Source of the DNA: a virus
Reading direction: 5' to 3' (one strand)
Length of the DNA: 56,318 bases
IMG/VR virus record: IMGVR_UViG_3300036857_000036
Span: 1-56,318 of that record
Positions 1,503 to 44,554 of the stretch are shown in pieces (position 1 is the first letter of the stretch; each line of letters starts with the position of its first letter). The notes under the pieces are model-generated. The model worked only from the letters and a program-made list of their open reading frames with translations, did not search any database and had not been told where the DNA came from. Made by a program: the position numbers and the translations under genes.

Positions 1503-4213
1503 GTAATGCTCCGCGCTATCTCGACGGCCCAAGGGGCCACCTCATATTTGCCACCACTTGCAGTCACCGCATGCATGCCGCTAAGTTTGTTGATGTAGAT
1601 ACCCCCGGCATCTACGGCCCCGAGACCAAAACCCGCCAACTCTCCATTCATCAGTTGCTGACGAACATTGATCGGTGCCGTCTGCAAGAACTCCCGCAGT
1701 TCACCTCCATAGTTCTCGCCGGCATGCTCGACGAGTTCCTCATGCTTCTTGATTTCAACGAGACCAAGCTCGCGCGCTCCCAGGAACCGCTCGTACAGTC
1801 GCCGGGCAGCCTCGATGTGCTCGGACTTGACGATCAGACGATGCCCGTCTTTCGTAGAAAACAGGCGAGCAGCAAGAGCCACAGCCATCCTAGCAAGCCT
1901 GACCCCCGCTTCATTCGGCTGGAAGATTGGGACGGTTGTTGTGAAATCACTACTAAGAGCCTTGCTGTGCTTCCAGATAGCTGTCCTTGCCGGCCGCGTC
2001 CACCGCACGTCATCTGCCTTGCGAGACCAGGCCCACAAGACGAGCCACCGCAGGACTTCCTGCGATTCGTCATCCAGTCCTCCATATGTCTTCTGGGCTT
2101 TGTCGAGTTCCTTGCCGACGTTGCCCTTGATGTATAGCGGGATGTCCACTCGCGCCAGATCTTCGGCCTGTCCCATCTGATCGCGAAGTGCGTCGATCCC
2201 ATTTGCGTACCGCGCCCGCCTACCATTAGCGAGCCACAACAGTCTGACCTGCGCTTGAACCTCAGCCGCGCGAATCTTGCTGACTTGGACCACGCCGCGC
2301 GAGCGCATGTCAGACATCTGCGCTATTTGCTCAGTACGTAGACCCTGCGCCTCATCCAGCGCGACGAGCCCACGATTGTTTAGAGGCAAAACCCCAACCG
2401 ATCCTCCCCAAGTTTCCCGGCCAGAGCCGAGGCGCTTGTCTACTCCGAACAGGAGTCCGGCGACGGAGGCATTTTCAGAGGATTGGTAGTGACCTCGTTG
2501 ATACAGATCGAGCAGTTTGGAGGCAGTCGTAGACTTACCACTACGCGTTTCACCGACGGCGAGTAGCTCCATCCAGCCACGAGTGACGACACTTCCCCCA
2601 AACCGGAAATGTAGCACTGAGTGATAGACCAGATCTGTTGCCATGTGTAGTAGTCGTTGTCCATAGATCTCAGTCACGTGGTACTCTAGTTGTTCCGAAA
2701 TCTGCTCAAGACGTTCATCCGGTGTTCCCGCGAAGCGCGCGACCCATTGCTGTGCCCGCTCCACATCGTCGGCTCCTGGGCTGAAGGAGTCAAGGTCTTG
2801 GACCGCAGGCTCACACTCGGTCGCCATGAAGATGGCCCGCTGTCCCCGTGGAGCCACCCGCAGCTTACCACGAAACCGATACGCCTGATTGAGACCAGGA
2901 GGCTTACCTTCGTGACGTAGGACAACTGGGTAGGCTTCCTCGGCAAGATTGGAGCCATTCCGAATCTCGCAGTCCCACGCGGAGTGGTACGTCGCTCGGA
3001 CATCGACCTTGGGGCAGTTGTGCGGAGCCCCTGAAGCACGGCGGAAAAGCTGGTTCCGCTTCTCAACGCTGCCGCTTGCTCCAAGAAGCTCCAGGTGGAG
3101 TTCGTGACTCTCCCCAATTGGAGTCTTGAGATCACCGCCGCGTTGGCCCACCGGGCATACCGCGCATCTCTTAGGGTCCCAATCATAGTTACAGCGTGCC
3201 TCCAAACTTCTAGGTAGCAGTATCTGTGTTGAGAAGATCGAGGCCAGAGTACCAACCACCTCGACCGACTTGCCCTCCATATTGCCCGACCGGAGTTCCT
3301 CATAATCGGCCGGAGTGTAAAGAAGCTCATCCTTGACTTCGCTGATGGGTTTTGCTAGCTTCTTCAGCTTGCTGATCGTCCCGCCGTCAATGAAGAAGTC
3401 CGTCAGATCCTTCCGCGAACCCATCGGATACGGCAGGTCGATAACGAGCAGTTTGCCGGCGATGTTTGAAAGTTTGTCTACGATCCTACGTGTTGCGCGC
3501 CGCCCATCCGCGTCGCGATCGAAACACACGTAAACGGTCAAGCCTTTGAACCAATCGGACCAGTTCTCCCGCCAGCGTCCGGTGCTCTTAGCGCCCGATG
3601 TACCAGTTACTGCTGGGAGCCCTTGCTGGTTGCAAATCAGCGCATCAAGTTCACCTTCGCAGATCATCACCTCCTTTGGATCGTCAAGGAAGATGTTGAT
3701 TGGATACAATCTCGGTGGACTCCCCCAACCGGGCCAATTCTTCATCTTGGGATCGAGAGTGTGCGAGTACTGCCTGATGTTGACGAGCTTACCTGCGTCA
3801 TCGTAGACAGGTATTGTGAAGCGTTGCCCGTTCCAGCCAATGCCGTATCGCTGGAGCGTATCTGGGTTCAGCCCACGGCGGATTTCGAGCCACTCCAGTA
3901 GATCACTGTTCCCCAACAACGCCGACTGCCAACCGTCCAGACGGGCTGAATCAGGGAACGGCCGCTTGTCGCCATTCGAGCTTGTGGTTCCAGGTTCACG
4001 ATTTGCAGGCAGCCATTCCGCACGCTGCTTGAGGAGCAGATCGAGTGTTCCACCGCCGCAGCTAGCAAAGCAGTTCCACTCGCGCGTCTTGAAGTTCACC
4101 ACGGCCGAACGCCGAGCATCGTCATGGAGAGGACAGATCATGTCGATATCCCCATTTGGACGCTCGGCGCCCGCCAGGTAGGGTTCCAACAGTTGCCTGG
4201 CGCTAGCGGCCAT
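1499..4213 (-). CDS. Primase-helicase with MCM-like AAA+ domain
   Basis: 904 residues. Domains in order: a CHC2-like zinc site (CPLHDD at about 26-31, then CFASCGG); a TOPRIM fold (ICEGELDAL about 184-192 and FDRDADG about 230-236); a middle region with a Cys cluster (CNYDWDPKRCAVC, about 335-350) before beta-rich sequence; and an AAA+ motor with Walker A GETRSGKST (about 554), Walker B LVALDEAQG (about 616), sensor-like LLWLANG (about 658) and an arginine-finger-like ARVDIPLYI (about 686). The order of motor motifs follows MCM helicases, not DnaB. It would synthesise primers and unwind at the fork. A GGGGG run lies eight bases before the ATG. The stop overlaps the next gene as ATGA. Confidence 0.85.
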   Translation of the reverse strand: MAASARQLLEPYLAGAERPNGDIDMICPLHDDARRSAVVNFKTREWNCFASCGGGTLDLLLKQRAEWLPANREPGTTSSNGDKRPFPDSARLDGWQSALLGNSDLLEWLEIRRGLNPDTLQRYGIGWNGQRFTIPVYDDAGKLVNIRQYSHTLDPKMKNWPGWGSPPRLYPINIFLDDPKEVMICEGELDALICNQQGLPAVTGTSGAKSTGRWRENWSDWFKGLTVYVCFDRDADGRRATRRIVDKLSNIAGKLLVIDLPYPMGSRKDLTDFFIDGGTISKLKKLAKPISEVKDELLYTPADYEELRSGNMEGKSVEVVGTLASIFSTQILLPRSLEARCNYDWDPKRCAVCPVGQRGGDLKTPIGESHELHLELLGASGSVEKRNQLFRRASGAPHNCPKVDVRATYHSAWDCEIRNGSNLAEEAYPVVLRHEGKPPGLNQAYRFRGKLRVAPRGQRAIFMATECEPAVQDLDSFSPGADDVERAQQWVARFAGTPDERLEQISEQLEYHVTEIYGQRLLHMATDLVYHSVLHFRFGGSVVTRGWMELLAVGETRSGKSTTASKLLDLYQRGHYQSSENASVAGLLFGVDKRLGSGRETWGGSVGVLPLNNRGLVALDEAQGLRTEQIAQMSDMRSRGVVQVSKIRAAEVQAQVRLLWLANGRRARYANGIDALRDQMGQAEDLARVDIPLYIKGNVGKELDKAQKTYGGLDDESQEVLRWLVLWAWSRKADDVRWTRPARTAIWKHSKALSSDFTTTVPIFQPNEAGVRLARMAVALAARLFSTKDGHRLIVKSEHIEAARRLYERFLGARELGLVEIKKHEELVEHAGENYGGELREFLQTAPINVRQQLMNGELAGFGLGAVDAGGIYINKLSGMHAVTASGGKYEVAPWAVEIARSIT

Positions 4214-38387: not shown

Positions 38388-38577
38388 CGCTCATGCTCTT
38401 TACCTTTTCACGACAGTCCTCAAGCTCGGTGCGCGTTTCCTGCCAGACACTATGCTGCACCTCAATGAGATCCGTCAGTTGTCCGCGGCTGAGCTTTGCG
38501 CCAGCCTTTACAGCGCCAGCCACGCCGACGAGAAATGTCAGTGCACCGAGCAAAGTGATGAACCAGTCAGAACTCAC
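38377..38577 (-). CDS. Small membrane protein with coiled coil
   Basis: 66 residues from GTG 38577, which overlaps the terminase stop (GTGA) and has GGAG six bases upstream. One N-terminal membrane helix (WFITLLGALTFLVGVAGAV) then a basic and coiled-coil part (DLIEVQHSVWQETRTELEDCREKV). It could be a holin partner or inner-membrane spanin component. It overlaps the collagen-like gene by 11 bases. Confidence 0.6.
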   Translation of the reverse strand: MSSDWFITLLGALTFLVGVAGAVKAGAKLSRGQLTDLIEVQHSVWQETRTELEDCREKVKSMSGGT

Positions 38578-40175
38578 CACTTGCTCCCCGCGAGCAAATC
38601 GCCGGTCAGAGATGCGAGGATGTCTTCGCTAGTCGTCGTTAGGAAGCCAGCGTTAGCGCTCATATGAGTGAGCTGCCATGCAGGATGCGGCGGCGGAATC
38701 GTGAACTCGCCTGCCTGCGGAAGCGGCCGGACGCACGCCATCATTGCGGCATCGCCACGGTCCGGGGATGGGAGGCCGCGCGCCTCCATGTCCTCCTTGG
38801 ACTCAACGAGAATGCGCCCGTCGCTGCGGATGAAATACTTGATGCTGCCAAGTTGGGCGATCAGTTTGTCGTCCTCGCCAGCTGGCGGTAGGTCAATCTC
38901 ACCACGCTCGAACTGCTTACGGAACGCCCACCATTGCTCAGCGCGCCGGTTCACAAACCGCTTCTTGGCCGTCGGAGTGGAGGGGCTCTCGCTGGCGACG
39001 AAGGGTATGACCGGGAAGTTCTGCTCGCGCATTCGATCGAATACCCCACCACCGACGCCGATGGTGTCGATCACCATGTAGATGTTTGCAAGGGACGCCT
39101 TGGTCTGATTCAGCACGCGGATGGCGCGACCGGCCGTCACCATCGTGTCCTGCTTATTGTAGCTGAATTCCTTGCGGAGATAACCGCCACGATTGCGGTA
39201 GCAGACAGTCTCGTTGCGCCCAAAGCGGGCCACGTCGAGGCCGAAACACCCGGGAATGTTGAGTGCGACGCCACTCAGATCGCGCAGTTGCGCCTCCATG
39301 ATAAGGCGCGGGTGAATCAGAGTCTCTTCACTGACTTCTGGGAACTCAGCCCCAACCTTGCTTGTGTACAGTGGGGAGTCCACGCCCCAGTCCTTGGCGC
39401 GCGCGTTGACCCAGTCCGGGGAGACAAGGTCGAGAAGCAGGCTCTCCGGCACATCCTCGCCCGTGTATGCGGGCGTGTCGAAGGCGCTGATCTTGATCTT
39501 GAACCAGTCGCTGTCTGGCTTGTGCGTCTTGGCGAAGGGCGTGTCTGGCACGTCGGGGTTGCCGATGGCTAGCACCCGTGCATACCTGTTCGTGGCGATG
39601 GTCTCGACGGCGTTCCAGAGCCATTCAGGGATGCCGCACGCCTCGTCCAAGATCACGAGGATGTAACGAGCGTGGATGCCCTGGAAGGCCTGAGACGCTT
39701 CGTCCTGGGACTTCAGGTCGGCGGGCTTGCGCCCATAGGCGATGATCTCGTCGCTGGCCGTCTTCCACTTCGGGATGTTGCCCGAGGTGATGCGACCCGG
39801 CAGGTTGGCGCGGTTCTTGACGCGCTGAATCTCCCTCCAGAGGATGACCTCGACCTGCGGCGCGGTGGGAGCCGTCGTGACCACGAAGGCAGAGCCGAGC
39901 GGGTGGACGTCCAACCACCACGCCGTCAGGTCAGCCGCGGACCATGACTTCCCAGTGTCGTGTGCGCTTCGCACACTGACCCGAGGATGGCGAACCACTG
40001 CATTCATGATCTCGCGCTGCTTGGAGTACGGGTGTGCTCGCGCCCGGTTGATAGTCCAGCCCACGGGGTTGCGGATCCACCGATGGGACGCGCGTCGCTC
40101 TTCCATGGAGCGACGGATGCTAGCTCCCAATCCACTGGGGGCTCTTGGGGCGCGGGGGAGGGTAGAGGAGGTCAT
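38574..40175 (-). CDS. terL: Terminase large subunit
   Basis: 533 residues from ATG 40175 (ATGA overlap). The ATPase part has a Walker A variant SVRSAHDTGKSW (about 65-76), and Walker B YILVILDEACG (about 169-179). The nuclease part has GLDVARFGRNE, VIDTIGVGGGV and RGDAAMM (about 311, 367 and 472), the acidic clusters of headful-type terminase nucleases. It cuts the concatemer and pumps DNA into the head. Confidence 0.9.
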   Translation of the reverse strand: MTSSTLPRAPRAPSGLGASIRRSMEERRASHRWIRNPVGWTINRARAHPYSKQREIMNAVVRHPRVSVRSAHDTGKSWSAADLTAWWLDVHPLGSAFVVTTAPTAPQVEVILWREIQRVKNRANLPGRITSGNIPKWKTASDEIIAYGRKPADLKSQDEASQAFQGIHARYILVILDEACGIPEWLWNAVETIATNRYARVLAIGNPDVPDTPFAKTHKPDSDWFKIKISAFDTPAYTGEDVPESLLLDLVSPDWVNARAKDWGVDSPLYTSKVGAEFPEVSEETLIHPRLIMEAQLRDLSGVALNIPGCFGLDVARFGRNETVCYRNRGGYLRKEFSYNKQDTMVTAGRAIRVLNQTKASLANIYMVIDTIGVGGGVFDRMREQNFPVIPFVASESPSTPTAKKRFVNRRAEQWWAFRKQFERGEIDLPPAGEDDKLIAQLGSIKYFIRSDGRILVESKEDMEARGLPSPDRGDAAMMACVRPLPQAGEFTIPPPHPAWQLTHMSANAGFLTTTSEDILASLTGDLLAGSKW

Positions 40176-40597
40176 GCGGCCTGCGGCTCCAGCACGGCGA
40201 GTGCGCGCTCTGCTGCGGCAGGGAGTTCCCTGCGCTGGCGACGCGTCAGGCGCAGGTTGGGGTCCTCCATCAGCGCAGTGAAGAGAGGCAGGAGCACATT
40301 TGACCAATCTTCGATCTGCTTGATCTGACGCTCCTCGATGCCGAGCGCGACGTAGGACTTGGCGATGCGGTGAAGCTGCTCGCGAAGTTGGGCCTGATAC
40401 TCAAAGAGAGAGCGGCCCGTTGGATGTGAGAAGAGCTGATCGGGGTCCCGTGGATCTGTGGGGATGTCAAAGTCTCTTGTGATCGCCTGGTCAAGCCGGT
40501 CCAGGGCTGCGCGCGTATGGAGGGTCGCGTAGAGCAGCTGTGTGATCGGGTCAGCTTGGGGATCTCGTTGGAGCCGCTCCAGGTCGCCCTTCGGCAT
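40172..40597 (-). CDS. Terminase small subunit candidate
   Basis: 141 residues, mostly helical (QAQLREQLHRIAKSYVALGIEERQI). It sits directly before the large terminase subunit with an ATGA overlap, and its size fits a small subunit that would recognise the packaging site. The sequence itself has no diagnostic motif. It is the first gene of the late operon, and the ATG lies only seven bases from the -10 box, so the message would be leaderless. Confidence 0.65.
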   Translation of the reverse strand: MPKGDLERLQRDPQADPITQLLYATLHTRAALDRLDQAITRDFDIPTDPRDPDQLFSHPTGRSLFEYQAQLREQLHRIAKSYVALGIEERQIKQIEDWSNVLLPLFTALMEDPNLRLTRRQRRELPAAAERALAVLEPQAA

Positions 40598-40603
40598 GCG
40601 CGG

Positions 40604-40632
40604 AGTCTACTCGCTTCGCTGTGATAAGTCAA
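40604..40632 (-). promoter_or_regulatory. Late-operon promoter with leaderless start
   Basis: On the minus strand TTGACT (40632-40627), 17 bases, then TAGACT (40609-40604). The expected transcription start is the A of the ATG at 40597, so no ribosome site is possible. AT-rich bases precede the -35 box. It differs from the CTTTAG promoter family in the other operons. Confidence 0.75.
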
Positions 40633-40853: not shown

Positions 40854-41549
40854 TCACTTGGCTGCGGTGCGGCGCCTGGAGCGGCCCCGTGCGGGCGCGG
40901 GCTGCTCTTCCGTGGGCTGCGCCTGAGCGCGGCGGCCACGCCCGCGACGGGGTGCCGGAGCCTCCTGCTCCTCGCTGTCCTCCGGCGCGTCCTCGTCGGT
41001 GCCGTTCGTGTCCTCGCGCGTGGAGCCGAGCTTGTGGGTGACGTTGCCGGACTTGGCGTTGGAGTACACCCGCCCCTCAGCCATCTCGCCACCGGCCTCG
41101 GTGTACACCTCGATCAGCTCGGACTTGCTCAGCCCGGAGCGCGCTTGGAGCTCACCCCAGCCAGTGCCCGAGTCGCGCAGTTCGAGGATGGTGTCGGCGA
41201 AGTCGTCGGCATCCGGGTCGAGTGCGAAGTCCGGGTCGGTGCTCGCGAGGTACTCGTTCATCATCTGACGGGCGGGGACACCTCCCGAGAGGCCCAACTC
41301 CTCAGCGATTTCCAGCCAGGGCGTGCCGTCCTCGCGCAGCTCTGCGATCTGCTGGCCCATCTCCAGGCGCTGCTCGGGGGTGTACTTGGCGCGGGCAACC
41401 GGGGTTGCCTCGTCGGCGTCACCGCTGCCGTTTGTTGCCTCAGCCTCGGGCTCCTGGGGCTTGGCGGCACGTCCGCGTCCGCGCCTGGTCTTGGGGGCAT
41501 CTGCCGGCTCTGCTTGCTTGGCGCGACCGCGCCTTGGTGCGGGACTCAT
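40854..41549 (-). CDS. HTH protein with basic tail, paralogue 1
   Basis: 231 residues from ATG 41549 (GGAG four bases upstream). Residues 50-150 contain two helix-turn-helix-like units (TPEQRLEMGQQIAELREDG followed by WLEIAEELGLSGG, and TILELRDSGTGWGELQARSG). Both ends are disordered and rich in Arg, Gly, Pro and Ala, with repeated RRGRGR segments like AT-hooks. It is paralogous to the gene at 42280. It is likely a DNA-binding, nucleoid-type protein, possibly autoregulated by the palindrome upstream. Exact role unknown. Confidence 0.75.
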   Translation of the reverse strand: MSPAPRRGRAKQAEPADAPKTRRGRGRAAKPQEPEAEATNGSGDADEATPVARAKYTPEQRLEMGQQIAELREDGTPWLEIAEELGLSGGVPARQMMNEYLASTDPDFALDPDADDFADTILELRDSGTGWGELQARSGLSKSELIEVYTEAGGEMAEGRVYSNAKSGNVTHKLGSTREDTNGTDEDAPEDSEEQEAPAPRRGRGRRAQAQPTEEQPAPARGRSRRRTAAK

Positions 41550-41626: not shown

Positions 41627-41642
41627 GGGTACATTCGTACCC
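41627..41642. promoter_or_regulatory. Palindromic operator candidate 1
   Basis: GGGTACATTCGTACCC, perfect six-base arms around four bases, followed by CAA. The same core is found at 42929-42942 in front of the paralogous gene. It is eight bases upstream of promoter motif D. Confidence 0.6.
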
Positions 41643-41753
41643 CAAGGTGATGTGCACCGGAAAGTAGAGTATTAGCAACGGTGGCTGGCGGTGCAAGATC
41701 ATGATGCAGAAACCACCCAAAAAACGGCCATAAAATGACCGCTTTTCGGTACA

Positions 41754-42279: not shown

Positions 42280-42831
42280 CTACGCGGCCTTCCGGGTGCG
42301 GCGGGCGCGCGGCTTGGCGGCGGGCTTGCGCCGCGCGTCGGCGGCCTTGGCCACCTCCGGGCGACGGATGACCGTCGCCCGGCCCTGCTCGGCGCGCTCG
42401 GCGCCGTGGCCGTCCGCGCCGCGCGCGTCCAGGCCGTACGTCCGGGCGCTGAGGAACTCGCCCTTGTCGACGAGGCTCTGGTCGGCGTTGCGGACGATCG
42501 CCTTCAGGTCGCTGACCTTGAGGCCGGTACGGGCGGAGAGGACCGCCCACCCGGCATCGCCGCGCCGCGCCTTGACGATCGCCTCGTGGTCGGTCGGGTC
42601 GATCATCGTCATCAGGCCGTTCGCGGCCATGTAGGCGTACATCGCCTCGCGGGCGGGGATGCCGCCGTTGTCGCCGTACCCGAGGCGCTGGCCGATCGGG
42701 ACCCACTTCTCACCGGCCTCGCGCATCTCGTACGCGATCTGGCCGTCGGCGATCTTCTGCTCGGGGGTCCGGCGGGTGCGCGTCGCGACGGGCTGCTCGG
42801 CGACGGCGGGCTTGCGGTTACTACGGGCCAT
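42280..42831 (-). CDS. HTH protein with basic tail, paralogue 2
   Basis: 183 residues, GGAG seven bases before the ATG. It shares with the 40854 gene: R-x-TPEQ, a Gly-Gln pair, E-x-RE-x-G-x-x-W, LGY/LGL-x-x-GG-x-PAR, and later GW-x-x-LSARTGL (ARSGL in the other). The C terminus is rich in Arg, Lys and Ala (RRKPAAKPRARRTRKAA), like histone H1 or Hup tails. It borders the origin-like region. It probably binds DNA and may act on it; function unknown. Confidence 0.75.
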   Translation of the reverse strand: MARSNRKPAVAEQPVATRTRRTPEQKIADGQIAYEMREAGEKWVPIGQRLGYGDNGGIPAREAMYAYMAANGLMTMIDPTDHEAIVKARRGDAGWAVLSARTGLKVSDLKAIVRNADQSLVDKGEFLSARTYGLDARGADGHGAERAEQGRATVIRRPEVAKAADARRKPAAKPRARRTRKAA

Positions 42832-42928
42832 GGTAATTCTCCAGTCTGCCCCTTTAGGGGCTTGAGCGGGCGGAGGCTTGTCCTCGCCCTACGCCCTTAT
42901 TATCGGCCAAGACGGCCTGAGGCTCGAC

Positions 42929-42942
42929 GGTACATTTGTACC
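42929..42942. promoter_or_regulatory. Palindromic operator candidate 2
   Basis: GGTACATTTGTACC, five-base arms around four bases, followed by CCAA as at 41627-41642. It lies 98 bases upstream of the HTH paralogue 2 start and next to the direct repeats of the origin-like region. Confidence 0.6.
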
Positions 42943-42950
42943 CCAAAACG

Positions 42951-43054
42951 GCCGAACGGTAGCATATCAGCGCCGGGCGGTAGGAAACTCACGTTCAGCG
43001 GTAGTAAATTGTCGACGAACGGGCCAACGGCGTGAAAAGCACGCCGAACGGTCG
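42951..43054. repeat. Direct repeats, GCCGAACGGTAG type
   Basis: Copies at 42951 (GCCGAACGGTAG), 42972 (GCCGGGCGGTAG), about 42994 (TTCAGCGGTAG) and 43043 (GCCGAACGGTCG). The first three are 21-22 bases apart (two helical turns). They probably bind a protein of the replication system. Confidence 0.6.
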
Positions 43055-43113
43055 TCAACACTCTGAATCACGGTCAGATGTTCTACTAGATTGCTAGACG
43101 CGCGCGACATTTA

Positions 43114-43171
43114 CTGGATGTCGGTAAAACAGCTCACCCGAAAGCGCGTACGCTGTTTTACCGACATCCAG
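43114..43171. repeat. 20-bp perfect inverted repeat
   Basis: 43114-43133 (begins CTGGATGTCGGT) and 43152-43171 are exact reverse complements around an 18-base loop that contains the first GC-rich iteron. The outer half of the arm occurs a third time at 43275-43286. This could be a cruciform or a protein-binding site at the start of replication. Confidence 0.85.
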
Positions 43172-43270
43172 AGCGCTAGCCCACCGGATGAAGGCGCATC
43201 ACCACCCCGGATGGCGGTGCGACAACACACCCGGAAGGGGTGCGTCATACCACCCGAATGCGGTGTGTCG
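43135..43270. repeat. Five iteron-like repeats
   Basis: Copies of a CACCCGRAWGSGGTGYGTC-like unit start at 43135, 43182, 43203, 43228 and 43251. Spacing is 47, 21, 25 and 23 bases, roughly one or two multiples of two helical turns. Repeat units differ in the middle, as in plasmid and phage initiator sites. Confidence 0.65.
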
Positions 43271-43320
43271 ACACACCGACATCCAGTTAGTGCCAGTCAA
43301 TCAGTCAACCAAAACCACAG

Positions 43321-43420
43321 CCAGTCCTCCGTGAAAAAAATTTTTGAAAAATTTTTCAGAAATTTTGTCATGTCGATGGGTCTGTCACACAACCATCCAG
43401 TCCTCCGCTGAAAAAATTTT
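43321..43420. other. AT-rich block with direct repeat, possible unwinding element
   Basis: Two copies of CCAGTCCTCCG then (C)TGAAAAAA with TTTT (43321-43344 and 43397-43420) frame a stretch of A and T runs (43333-43370) in a GC-rich genome. Placed next to iterons, it is the expected feature of a DNA unwinding element. Confidence 0.65.
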
Positions 43421-43524
43421 GCCTCTTACGGCGTGGATTCCGGCCCGTTTTTTCCACCACCACCCACCCAATGTCTCGCGCGCGTACGGACGGACGGGAG
43501 AGCACCCCGAGTACCCCGAGAAAA

Positions 43525-43562
43525 AGAGAGCTGAACCCCTAGCTATAGTCTGATCGCTCTCT
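43525..43562 (-). terminator. Possible terminator behind the 43655 gene
   Basis: AGAGAGC (43525-43531) pairs with GCTCTCT (43556-43562) around 24 bases; on the minus strand the stem is followed by TTTT. The large loop makes it weaker than a standard terminator. Confidence 0.4.
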
Positions 43563-43654
43563 CTCATTTTCTCTCCCTCTGGACTCCTCTCTCCCCTCCG
43601 TCCGTGCGCGTAACGAGCGCGCGTACGGGAGAGGCGCCACATACCATTCGTGCT

Positions 43655-44554
43655 CTACCGGTCAAGAAAATCACCGGAAAAGCCCGTCATCGCCGCGACC
43701 GCCGGAACCATCTTCCGAAGGTATGTTTCTCGAAACGATTGGGCCTTAGTGTATATCCGGCCCGCGAGCTTGCGCCGAATCCGGTCATCTGGCAAATCAG
43801 ATTTCATCCCCTTGAAAAGTTGGGCATTTACCATGATGTGGTTGATTTCATCCCACCGAATCAGCCACTCAGTCCACGAGAACACATTGCCAGTCTCGAC
43901 AATTAGTCCATTCACGGGTCCGGACGCATAGTCCATTCTACCGATACCAGGTCGCCCGTTGGCGGCTGAGTCCCAACGGATCGCTGGCTTTTGGGTCAGA
44001 TACCAACGCTCAACTTCACTACAATTCGCCTTGAAGTTGCCAACTCCAGTCCCCTTGCCCTCGGACCACCTATCGCGCAATCCCGAGCGCTCCACTTGCC
44101 CCGCGCGGATCCAGGCGGCACATCGCAGCCATGGGTTGACAAAGTACCGCTCTAGCTCATATGGCGAACACCACGTATCGTAGACAAGCACGCCGACGCC
44201 CCGATCATCTTCGTGCTCTAGCTTCATTTGCCATGTGGGGTCGTACTCAGCCCAGATCTGCGGGTCGGGCTCCCACACGTCAATCCGCTCACGCAGCATG
44301 TGCCAGGCGTAGGCGGCCACTTTGACATCCCAGTCAGAGCCGTTGGGGTTCTGCGCTTCGAGCTGAGCGTGAAACAGCATCCGACTCATCTCGTCATCCA
44401 GCCGGATAGCGTCACCGGCGAGCGGCTTGGGAAGCCCAGCCAGTCCTCCGAGAAATCCACGCTCGACGGCATCGTGCTCCAACTCGGCGCGGTCGGCTGA
44501 GTTCAGCCGCATAACGTCGAGGAACAAGCGCCGGTTACAATGCATCTCAGGCAT
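43655..44554 (-). CDS. Hypothetical protein, unknown family
   Basis: 299 residues. Trp-rich, with a helical start (NRRLFLDVMRLNSADRAELEHD), an acidic middle (EPDPQIWAEYDPTWQMKLEHEDDRG) and a basic C-terminal helix. No motif I can assign. It is the last gene of the small-gene unit and borders the origin-like region. It overlaps its upstream neighbour by eight bases. Confidence 0.6.
   Translation of the reverse strand: MPEMHCNRRLFLDVMRLNSADRAELEHDAVERGFLGGLAGLPKPLAGDAIRLDDEMSRMLFHAQLEAQNPNGSDWDVKVAAYAWHMLRERIDVWEPDPQIWAEYDPTWQMKLEHEDDRGVGVLVYDTWCSPYELERYFVNPWLRCAAWIRAGQVERSGLRDRWSEGKGTGVGNFKANCSEVERWYLTQKPAIRWDSAANGRPGIGRMDYASGPVNGLIVETGNVFSWTEWLIRWDEINHIMVNAQLFKGMKSDLPDDRIRRKLAGRIYTKAQSFRETYLRKMVPAVAAMTGFSGDFLDR

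Follow-up and report, generated by a model that had tools for sequence, protein, structure and literature searches.

The best conserved half of a repeat-rich intergenic region in a myovirus genome resembles gene-control DNA more than an established replication origin

Genomic setting of the gap

The DNA analyzed here (the window, labelled G000) comprises 56,318 bases and comes from IMG/VR. Genes for a portal, a sheath, a major head protein and a tape measure were detected and mark the virus as a myovirus, which also codes for a primase-MCM protein, Pol III alpha and ThyX and carries nearly all of its long genes on the minus strand. The ends of the record share an identical 110-bp repeat, and its map is therefore circular. 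The 823-base noncoding stretch that an earlier note had picked out as origin-like was confirmed between two minus-strand ORFs (Table 1). No function could be assigned to the upstream neighbor, and past the gap the gene order is HTH-A, HTH-B, a 141-aa gene and the gene of the large terminase subunit (TerL). Coding-strand GC skew at fourfold sites is about −0.2 in the 38- to 43-kb region and rises abruptly at the gap, to a value near or above 0, both in the window and in its relative G004.

The TerL proteins of the closest named phages were less than 60% identical to that of the window (464 records), and a search of a genome collection found no TerL relative. The relatives used for comparison were L004/G001, L005/G002, L007/G004 (together with L006/G003), L012/G005 and L013/G006. 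The first of them was identical to the window across the 3.8 kb compared, DNA identity amounted to 76% for L005/G002 and 74% for L007/G004 (with L006/G003), and TerL identity was 65% for L012/G005 and 69% for L013/G006. G004 represents a near-full-length sister with the gene order of the window. An 85-aa ORF within the gap (43385–43642, minus strand) showed no clear coding signature in comparison with L007: substitutions fell 14/18/20 on the three codon positions, in a test that is weak in that a control gene gave 32/36/51, and the gaps were mostly not multiples of three. The search against Rfam returned a single match, to a miRNA family and far under the cut-off, which we took as chance, and a terminator scan gave one weak match, where shuffled sequences averaged 1.3.

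Table 1. Positions of the features in and downstream of the gap, in window coordinates
Feature	Position	Strand	Remarks
Gap	42832–43654		823 bp; between ORFs 43655–44554 (−) and 42280–42831 (−)
A+T-rich block	43334–43373		85% A+T; A/T tracts every ~11 bp
Array 1 dyad 1, GGTG-N8-CACC	43262–43277		pitch kept in L005, L007, L006 and L012
Array 1 dyad 2, GGTG-N8-CACC	43239–43254		
Array 1 dyad 3, GGTG-N8-CACC	43216–43231		
Degenerate fourth dyad	43193–43208		23-bp pitch too; TRF array 43184–43277
Perfect 20-bp inverted repeat	43114–43171		arms 43114–43133 and 43152–43171; 18-nt loop; hairpin/cruciform
Invariant block with TCTAGCAATCTAG	43081–43110	−	97% identical in window, L005 and L007
Array 2 unit 1, ACCGTTCGG	43044–43052	−	start 43052
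Array 2 unit 2, CCCGTTCGT	43015–43023	−	start 43023; 29 bp on
Array 2 unit 3, ACCGCTGAA	42994–43002	−	start 43002; 21 bp on
Array 2 unit 4, ACCGCCCGG	42973–42981	−	start 42981; 21 bp on
Array 2 unit 5, ACCGTTCGG	42952–42960	−	start 42960; 21 bp on
Operator-like palindrome GGGGTACAAATGTACC	42929–42944	−	24 bp before −10
Conserved CCGATAAT, putative −10	42899–42906	−	GATAAT at 42904–42899
Leader hairpin GCCCCTAAAGGGGC	42848–42861	−	before ribosome-binding site
HTH-A	42280–42831	−	183 aa; two tandem HTH units and basic tail
Second operator palindrome copy	41628–41643	−	1 mismatch; 34 bp before TAGAAT, upstream of HTH-B
HTH-B	40854–41549	−	paralogue of HTH-A
Promoter-like TTGACT-17-TAGACT	40604–40632	−	9/12; before 141-aa gene and TerL
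TerL	38574–40307	−	phrog_2, E value of 2e-29

Repeat arrays and promoter-like elements in the gap

The half of the gap distal to HTH-A contains array 1, three dyads with a pitch of exactly 23 bp that continue into a degenerate fourth, for which a tandem-repeat finder returned 4.0 copies of 23 bp. The earlier note had listed five GC-rich iterons; the repeats held up, but they are better described as GGTG-N8-CACC dyads at this pitch. The window genome contains no GGTG-N8-CACC other than these three. Their number is in itself ordinary, because shuffled genomes average 1.3 and reach a maximum of 6; regularly spaced triplets of dyads arose in 0 of 200 shuffles. The GGTG...CACC arms and the 23-bp pitch are conserved in the relatives, with varying middle eight bases: the dyads start at 2884, 2907 and 2930 in L005, at 7545, 7568 and 7591 in L007, and at 17 and 40 in L012, where a GGTG follows at 63 and a 19-bp palindrome is simply two of the dyads. 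Within IMG/VR the triplet was found in five contigs, four of the window lineage and L025, which was discarded as a relative, being an unrelated contig with a plain 23-bp tandem repeat and no protein match to the window. When dyads of any 4-mer were allowed, L059 was the only one of 21 fetched loci outside the lineage to carry such an array, in a test that L012 escapes with the two dyads of its contig. In L059 (3279–3370), ATTGACTT...AAGTCAAT dyads follow each other at the 23-bp pitch of array 1 within a gene-free gap, their letters being unrelated; the same contig carries a TerL relative at 28%.

The perfect 20-bp inverted repeat and a partial third copy of its arm (43275–43286), both noticed earlier, were recovered as well, as were a 27-nt CCAGTCCTCCG-TGAAAAAA pair at 43318/43394 and the run of A and T. 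The inverted repeat folds at a z score of −9.5. It was not found in L005, where the sole inverted repeat of the gap is one formed by two of the dyads, or in L007, and the gap of G004 contains no inverted repeat of at least 10 bp. A reading of the arms as a telomere-like palindrome was dropped, since the structure is imperfect inside and not found in these two relatives. No other 40-mer of the genome is as rich in A+T as the A+T-rich block (the next reaches 75%). The block is separated from the dyads by 57 bp and lies at the same place in L005 (88%); it is absent in G004/L007, with no 40-mer above 65% A+T in the G004 gap. G004 aligns round the whole map with its record break elsewhere, and thus both maps are circular, so that the missing block does not reflect a lost contig end. 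Amid the poorly conserved distal gap, GGGCCGGAATCCAC (43436–43455) is invariant in L005, L006 and L007.

In a three-way alignment, identity drops to 13–30% in 43111–43170 and 43351–43380. The half proximal to HTH-A is mostly 80–100% identical from 43110 to 42931, except for 63% in 43051–43080, and falls to 47% in 42901–42930 before it returns to about 90% up to 42841. This half carries array 2, composed of ACCGTTCGG/GCCGAACGGTAG-type direct repeats on the minus strand. Repeats had been reported here before, as four at steps of 21 to 22 bases; there are five units, at steps of 29, 21, 21 and 21 bp. A run of three [C/T]ACCG sites at 20- to 23-bp spacing occurs once in the genome and in none of 200 shuffles. 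The same steps are found in L005 and L007, and 21 and 21 in L012. Collectively, the pitch of both arrays is preserved in three groups of related contigs, of which the most distant is truncated at its end, and G006 (L013) has neither array.

Past array 2, the order is the operator-like palindrome, 24 bases, CCGATAAT, the leader hairpin, GGAG and ATG. The 24-base spacer is of equal length and differing letters in three phages, and CCGATAAT is kept in the window, L005, L007 and L012, with CCGATACT in L013. When up to three mismatches were allowed, the operator palindrome GGGGTACRAATGTACC matched two places in the genome, one before HTH-A and one before HTH-B, and five shuffles gave 0, 0, 1, 0 and 0 matches. 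L005 has copies before both HTH genes and a further one at 3044 (3044, 3249 and 4620), that of HTH-B lying 44 bp from TAGACT; no operator palindrome was found before HTH-B in L007. The distance from operator to putative −10 is thus 24 bp at HTH-A in all three phages and 34 and 44 bp at HTH-B, and these helical-turn steps suggest a protein bound on one face of the helix. A sigma-70 scan of 42700–43800 found no consensus promoter, and the best candidate for HTH-A scored 8 of 12 with a poor −35. The promoter-like sequence further downstream lies just before the 141-aa gene and TerL, and the packaging genes may therefore have a promoter of their own.

The same repeat in other phages and its likeness to AlgR and LytTR sites

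A search of IMG/VR with the 17-base pattern of array 2 (CTACCG-N5-CG-N4-TTTC-N-TACCG) yielded 10 contigs, five of the window lineage and five others. The match in L068 lies within an ORF and was discounted as fortuitous. The remaining four (L065, L067, L069 and L070) carry a fuller version, CTACCGTTCGTCG...TTTCCTACCG, in a stretch free of genes; their first unit has TTCGT at its free positions, and in three of the four the second TACCG is followed by TTCGTC. In L065, L067 and L070 the gene of a large terminase (phrog_2, E values of 6e-37 to 2e-48 and 6e-33) lies within 1.8 kb downstream; the contig of L069, which is related to L065, stops short of the terminase. A −35 hexamer, TTGACA, lies at +30 in L070, and no good sigma-70 promoter was found at the expected place in L065, L069 or L067. 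Past the repeat pair in L067 (1–70), we noted by eye a sequence, TTGGCACGCTTTTTGCC, which we take to be sigma-54-like.

Two named phages carry the repeat before promoters of sigma-70-like sequence. In Stenotrophomonas phage Sonora (41 of 64 kb covered), four ACCGTTCGTCG-type pairs at 21 bp are located in an early-type region, and every one of them precedes TTTACT-16/17-TATACT or TAGAGT, with the −35 at +19, +29, +29 and +39 from the second unit. Pseudomonas phage PCCM_PaP001 (36 kb) has five exact ACCGTTCGTCG copies, all intergenic; three of these precede a promoter scoring 9–10 of 12, with the −35 at +39, +39 and +40, and two have no good promoter. A score of 9 was reached at 26 of 2,000 random positions. 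L012 resembles the first pair of Sonora, with the hexamer TCGAGA at +19 and GATAAT at +42. The eight −35 distances (19, 29, 29, 30, 39, 39, 39 and 40) fall on whole helical turns, the copies within one phage not being independent of each other. Across 77 fetched loci, many of them overlapping and 854 kb in total, near-match pairs at 19–23 bp all had a pitch of exactly 21 bp. No copy of the strict pair turned up in the genomes of 84,980 bacterial and archaeal species, and a plasmid search gave 40 records, all weak. A lox site was considered and rejected: TACCGTTCGT also occurs in lox66/71 vectors, and the flanks here differ. No title or abstract reporting the element in phages was found in a literature search that left most subscription journals outside, and we do not claim novelty on the basis of that search.

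The repeat resembles binding sites of known bacterial regulators. In the published work, AlgR sites have the core CCGTTCGTC (PMC4064291), and the sites of LytTR-family regulators consist of two imperfect direct repeats separated by about 12 bp. In LytTR regulatory systems a separation of 12 bp is the most common, and the repeats tend to lie 10 bp upstream of the −35 (PMC6193735); the sites of AlgR itself often lack such pairing (see also PMC4440721 and PMC4227749). The core of the algD and algC sites of Pseudomonas aeruginosa lies within the exact repeat of Sonora, PCCM_PaP001, L065, L067 and L069, and the units of array 2 are degenerate variants of it. The AlgR sites of host genes are scattered single sites at variable distances, whereas the phage repeats are evenly spaced direct repeats. 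The pitch of array 2 (9 + 12 = 21 bp) matches the LytTR-family geometry as given in the same sources, in which the promoters of AgrA and of streptococcal LytTR regulatory systems have direct repeats spaced by about 12 bp upstream of the −35; unlike these promoters, array 2 consists of four in-phase units plus one and is carried by a phage.

Against an ACCGTTCGT-like LytTR consensus, the five window units score 8, 7, 6, 6 and 8 of 8, and the units of Sonora, L065, L067 and L069 match it exactly. The 12-bp gap is present in the window, L005 and L007 (21, 21, 21) and in L012 (21, 21). Sonora's +19 leaves 10 bp to the −35, as in LytTR regulatory systems, and L012 does likewise; the window, L005 and L007 depart from this spacing, with 56 bp from the last unit to the −10, a distance that does not keep step with the 42, 51, 54, 61, 62 and 63 bp found elsewhere. 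The ACCGTTCGTCG element upstream of a sigma-70-like promoter is common to PCCM_PaP001 and Sonora, where it comes in 21-bp pairs; both phages have several copies per genome with good −35 and −10 sequences, whereas the window has one array and a weak promoter. The LytTR domain (PF04397) was found in 0 of 10 phage records, while the control was positive in 7 of 14 genomes, and the regulator would therefore be the host's; a host LytTR regulator may serve as an activator. We propose tentatively that unrelated phages, namely the window myovirus lineage, the Stenotrophomonas phage, the Pseudomonas phages and several uncultured ones, could share a promoter-upstream element at whole-turn distances from the promoter, which would copy host AlgR/LytTR sites and let a host two-component regulator time expression.

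Possible roles in gene control, replication and packaging

Collectively, the best conserved half of the region resembles a gene-control region more than an established origin of replication. Judged from sequence, 43110–42832 is probably the promoter/enhancer region of the HTH-A gene and would head the HTH and packaging gene block. An AlgR-like LytTR regulator, most likely host-made, would bind the ACCGTTCGG-type repeats and, once bound, assist RNA polymerase there in using a weak promoter. The palindrome common to both HTH promoters would be bound by another protein, which may be HTH-A or HTH-B itself and would so couple the two paralogues. Observed directly are the sequences, with their pitch, conservation and single location, and the occurrence of the repeat before promoters of other phages; promoter activity, protein binding and the sense in which control acts are inferred. 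The dyads represent a second candidate dimer-binding site, which could serve in control as well or belong to an origin.

The HTH proteins might also do without a host regulator, with HTH-A (or HTH-B) binding array 2 and repressing or activating its own promoter. The AlphaFold model of HTH-A (8 sequences, mean pLDDT of 66.6) has three-helix units in tandem at residues 23–70 and 82–116 and a disordered basic tail, and two such DNA-binding-like units would fit direct repeats. The palindrome, the dyads and array 2 are all candidate sites for HTH-A. The model had no Foldseek match at an E value of 0.001, and the protein had no match among 50,697 phage records. The array and the HTH gene occur together in the window, L005, L007 and L012. 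However, the repeat is also found in phages in which no HTH-A relative was found, and L013 keeps a relative of HTH-A and lacks the array, which makes self-regulation through array 2 doubtful. HTH-A was rejected as the small terminase, as no terminase gene adjoins its relative in L030 and the Foldseek/VIA matches were weak and mixed (best Z score of 6.3), with the small terminase of phage G20c at a Z score of 5.4 among resolvases and sigma factors. A cos or pac site bound by the small terminase is very unlikely to underlie the gap. It does lie upstream of the terminase genes, TerL starting 2.5 kb downstream, and the array 2 pair precedes terminases in L065, L067 and L070; moreover, the L012 contig ends 16 bases before the first dyad and that of L067 starts 10 bases before its pair, as at a physical end. 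Nevertheless, three genes separate the gap from TerL, which has a promoter-like sequence of its own, and the 141-aa gene beside it is by position the likelier small terminase (its protein model is helical, with a mean pLDDT of 65 and no clear match, only common helical bundles). The Sonora pairs sit in the early-type region, with none in the 617 bp before the small terminase, and two contig ends are weak evidence, other contigs running through the site. The circular maps of G000 and G004 are closed at two different places. A shared packaging site is not expected, because the small terminases differ between these phages.

Replication was the function that the earlier note had favored. In iteron origins, such as lambda ori and those of iteron plasmids, dyads or direct repeats at about two helical turns lie near an A+T-rich block, and the gap shares with them a repeat array of about two-turn pitch close to such a block; its fixed-pitch dyads resemble the lambda ori iterons, which speaks for an origin. 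An initiator, perhaps HTH-A, would then bind the 23-bp dyads, the 21-bp repeats or both and melt the A+T block. Both arrays are confined to one place in the genome and, G006 apart, the relatives conserve them, the most A+T-rich 40-mer is nearby and kept in L005, and the phage codes for its own primase-MCM protein and Pol III alpha. On the other hand, the A+T block and the palindrome are missing from the near-full-length sister, and HTH-A, although a DNA-binding candidate next to the gap, matched no known initiator family. Array 2 is better paralleled in promoters, being common to those of other phages, and the fourfold-site GC skew, which shifts near 43 kb in both G000 and G004, is a local break with no clean two-arm pattern. 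What endures of the earlier reading is the order of features, the regular arrays and their conservation in close relatives, found by the comparison of related phages that the note had suggested. As the arrays are conserved, the note's refuting condition of repeats not kept in relatives does not tell against it. The two features most specific to an origin, the A+T block and the palindrome, are not conserved, and the origin reading is partly supported at best. We consider an origin in the distal half, with the dyads and the A+T block, unlikely. The origin, the packaging site and HTH-A binding do not exclude one another.

If the shared element is what we propose, quite different phages would read a host signaling regulator to switch genes on, and phage growth would be tied to the state of the host. 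The gap also carries a warning for the annotation of such regions, namely that a combination of iterons, a palindrome and an A+T-rich run can mark a promoter region instead of an origin.
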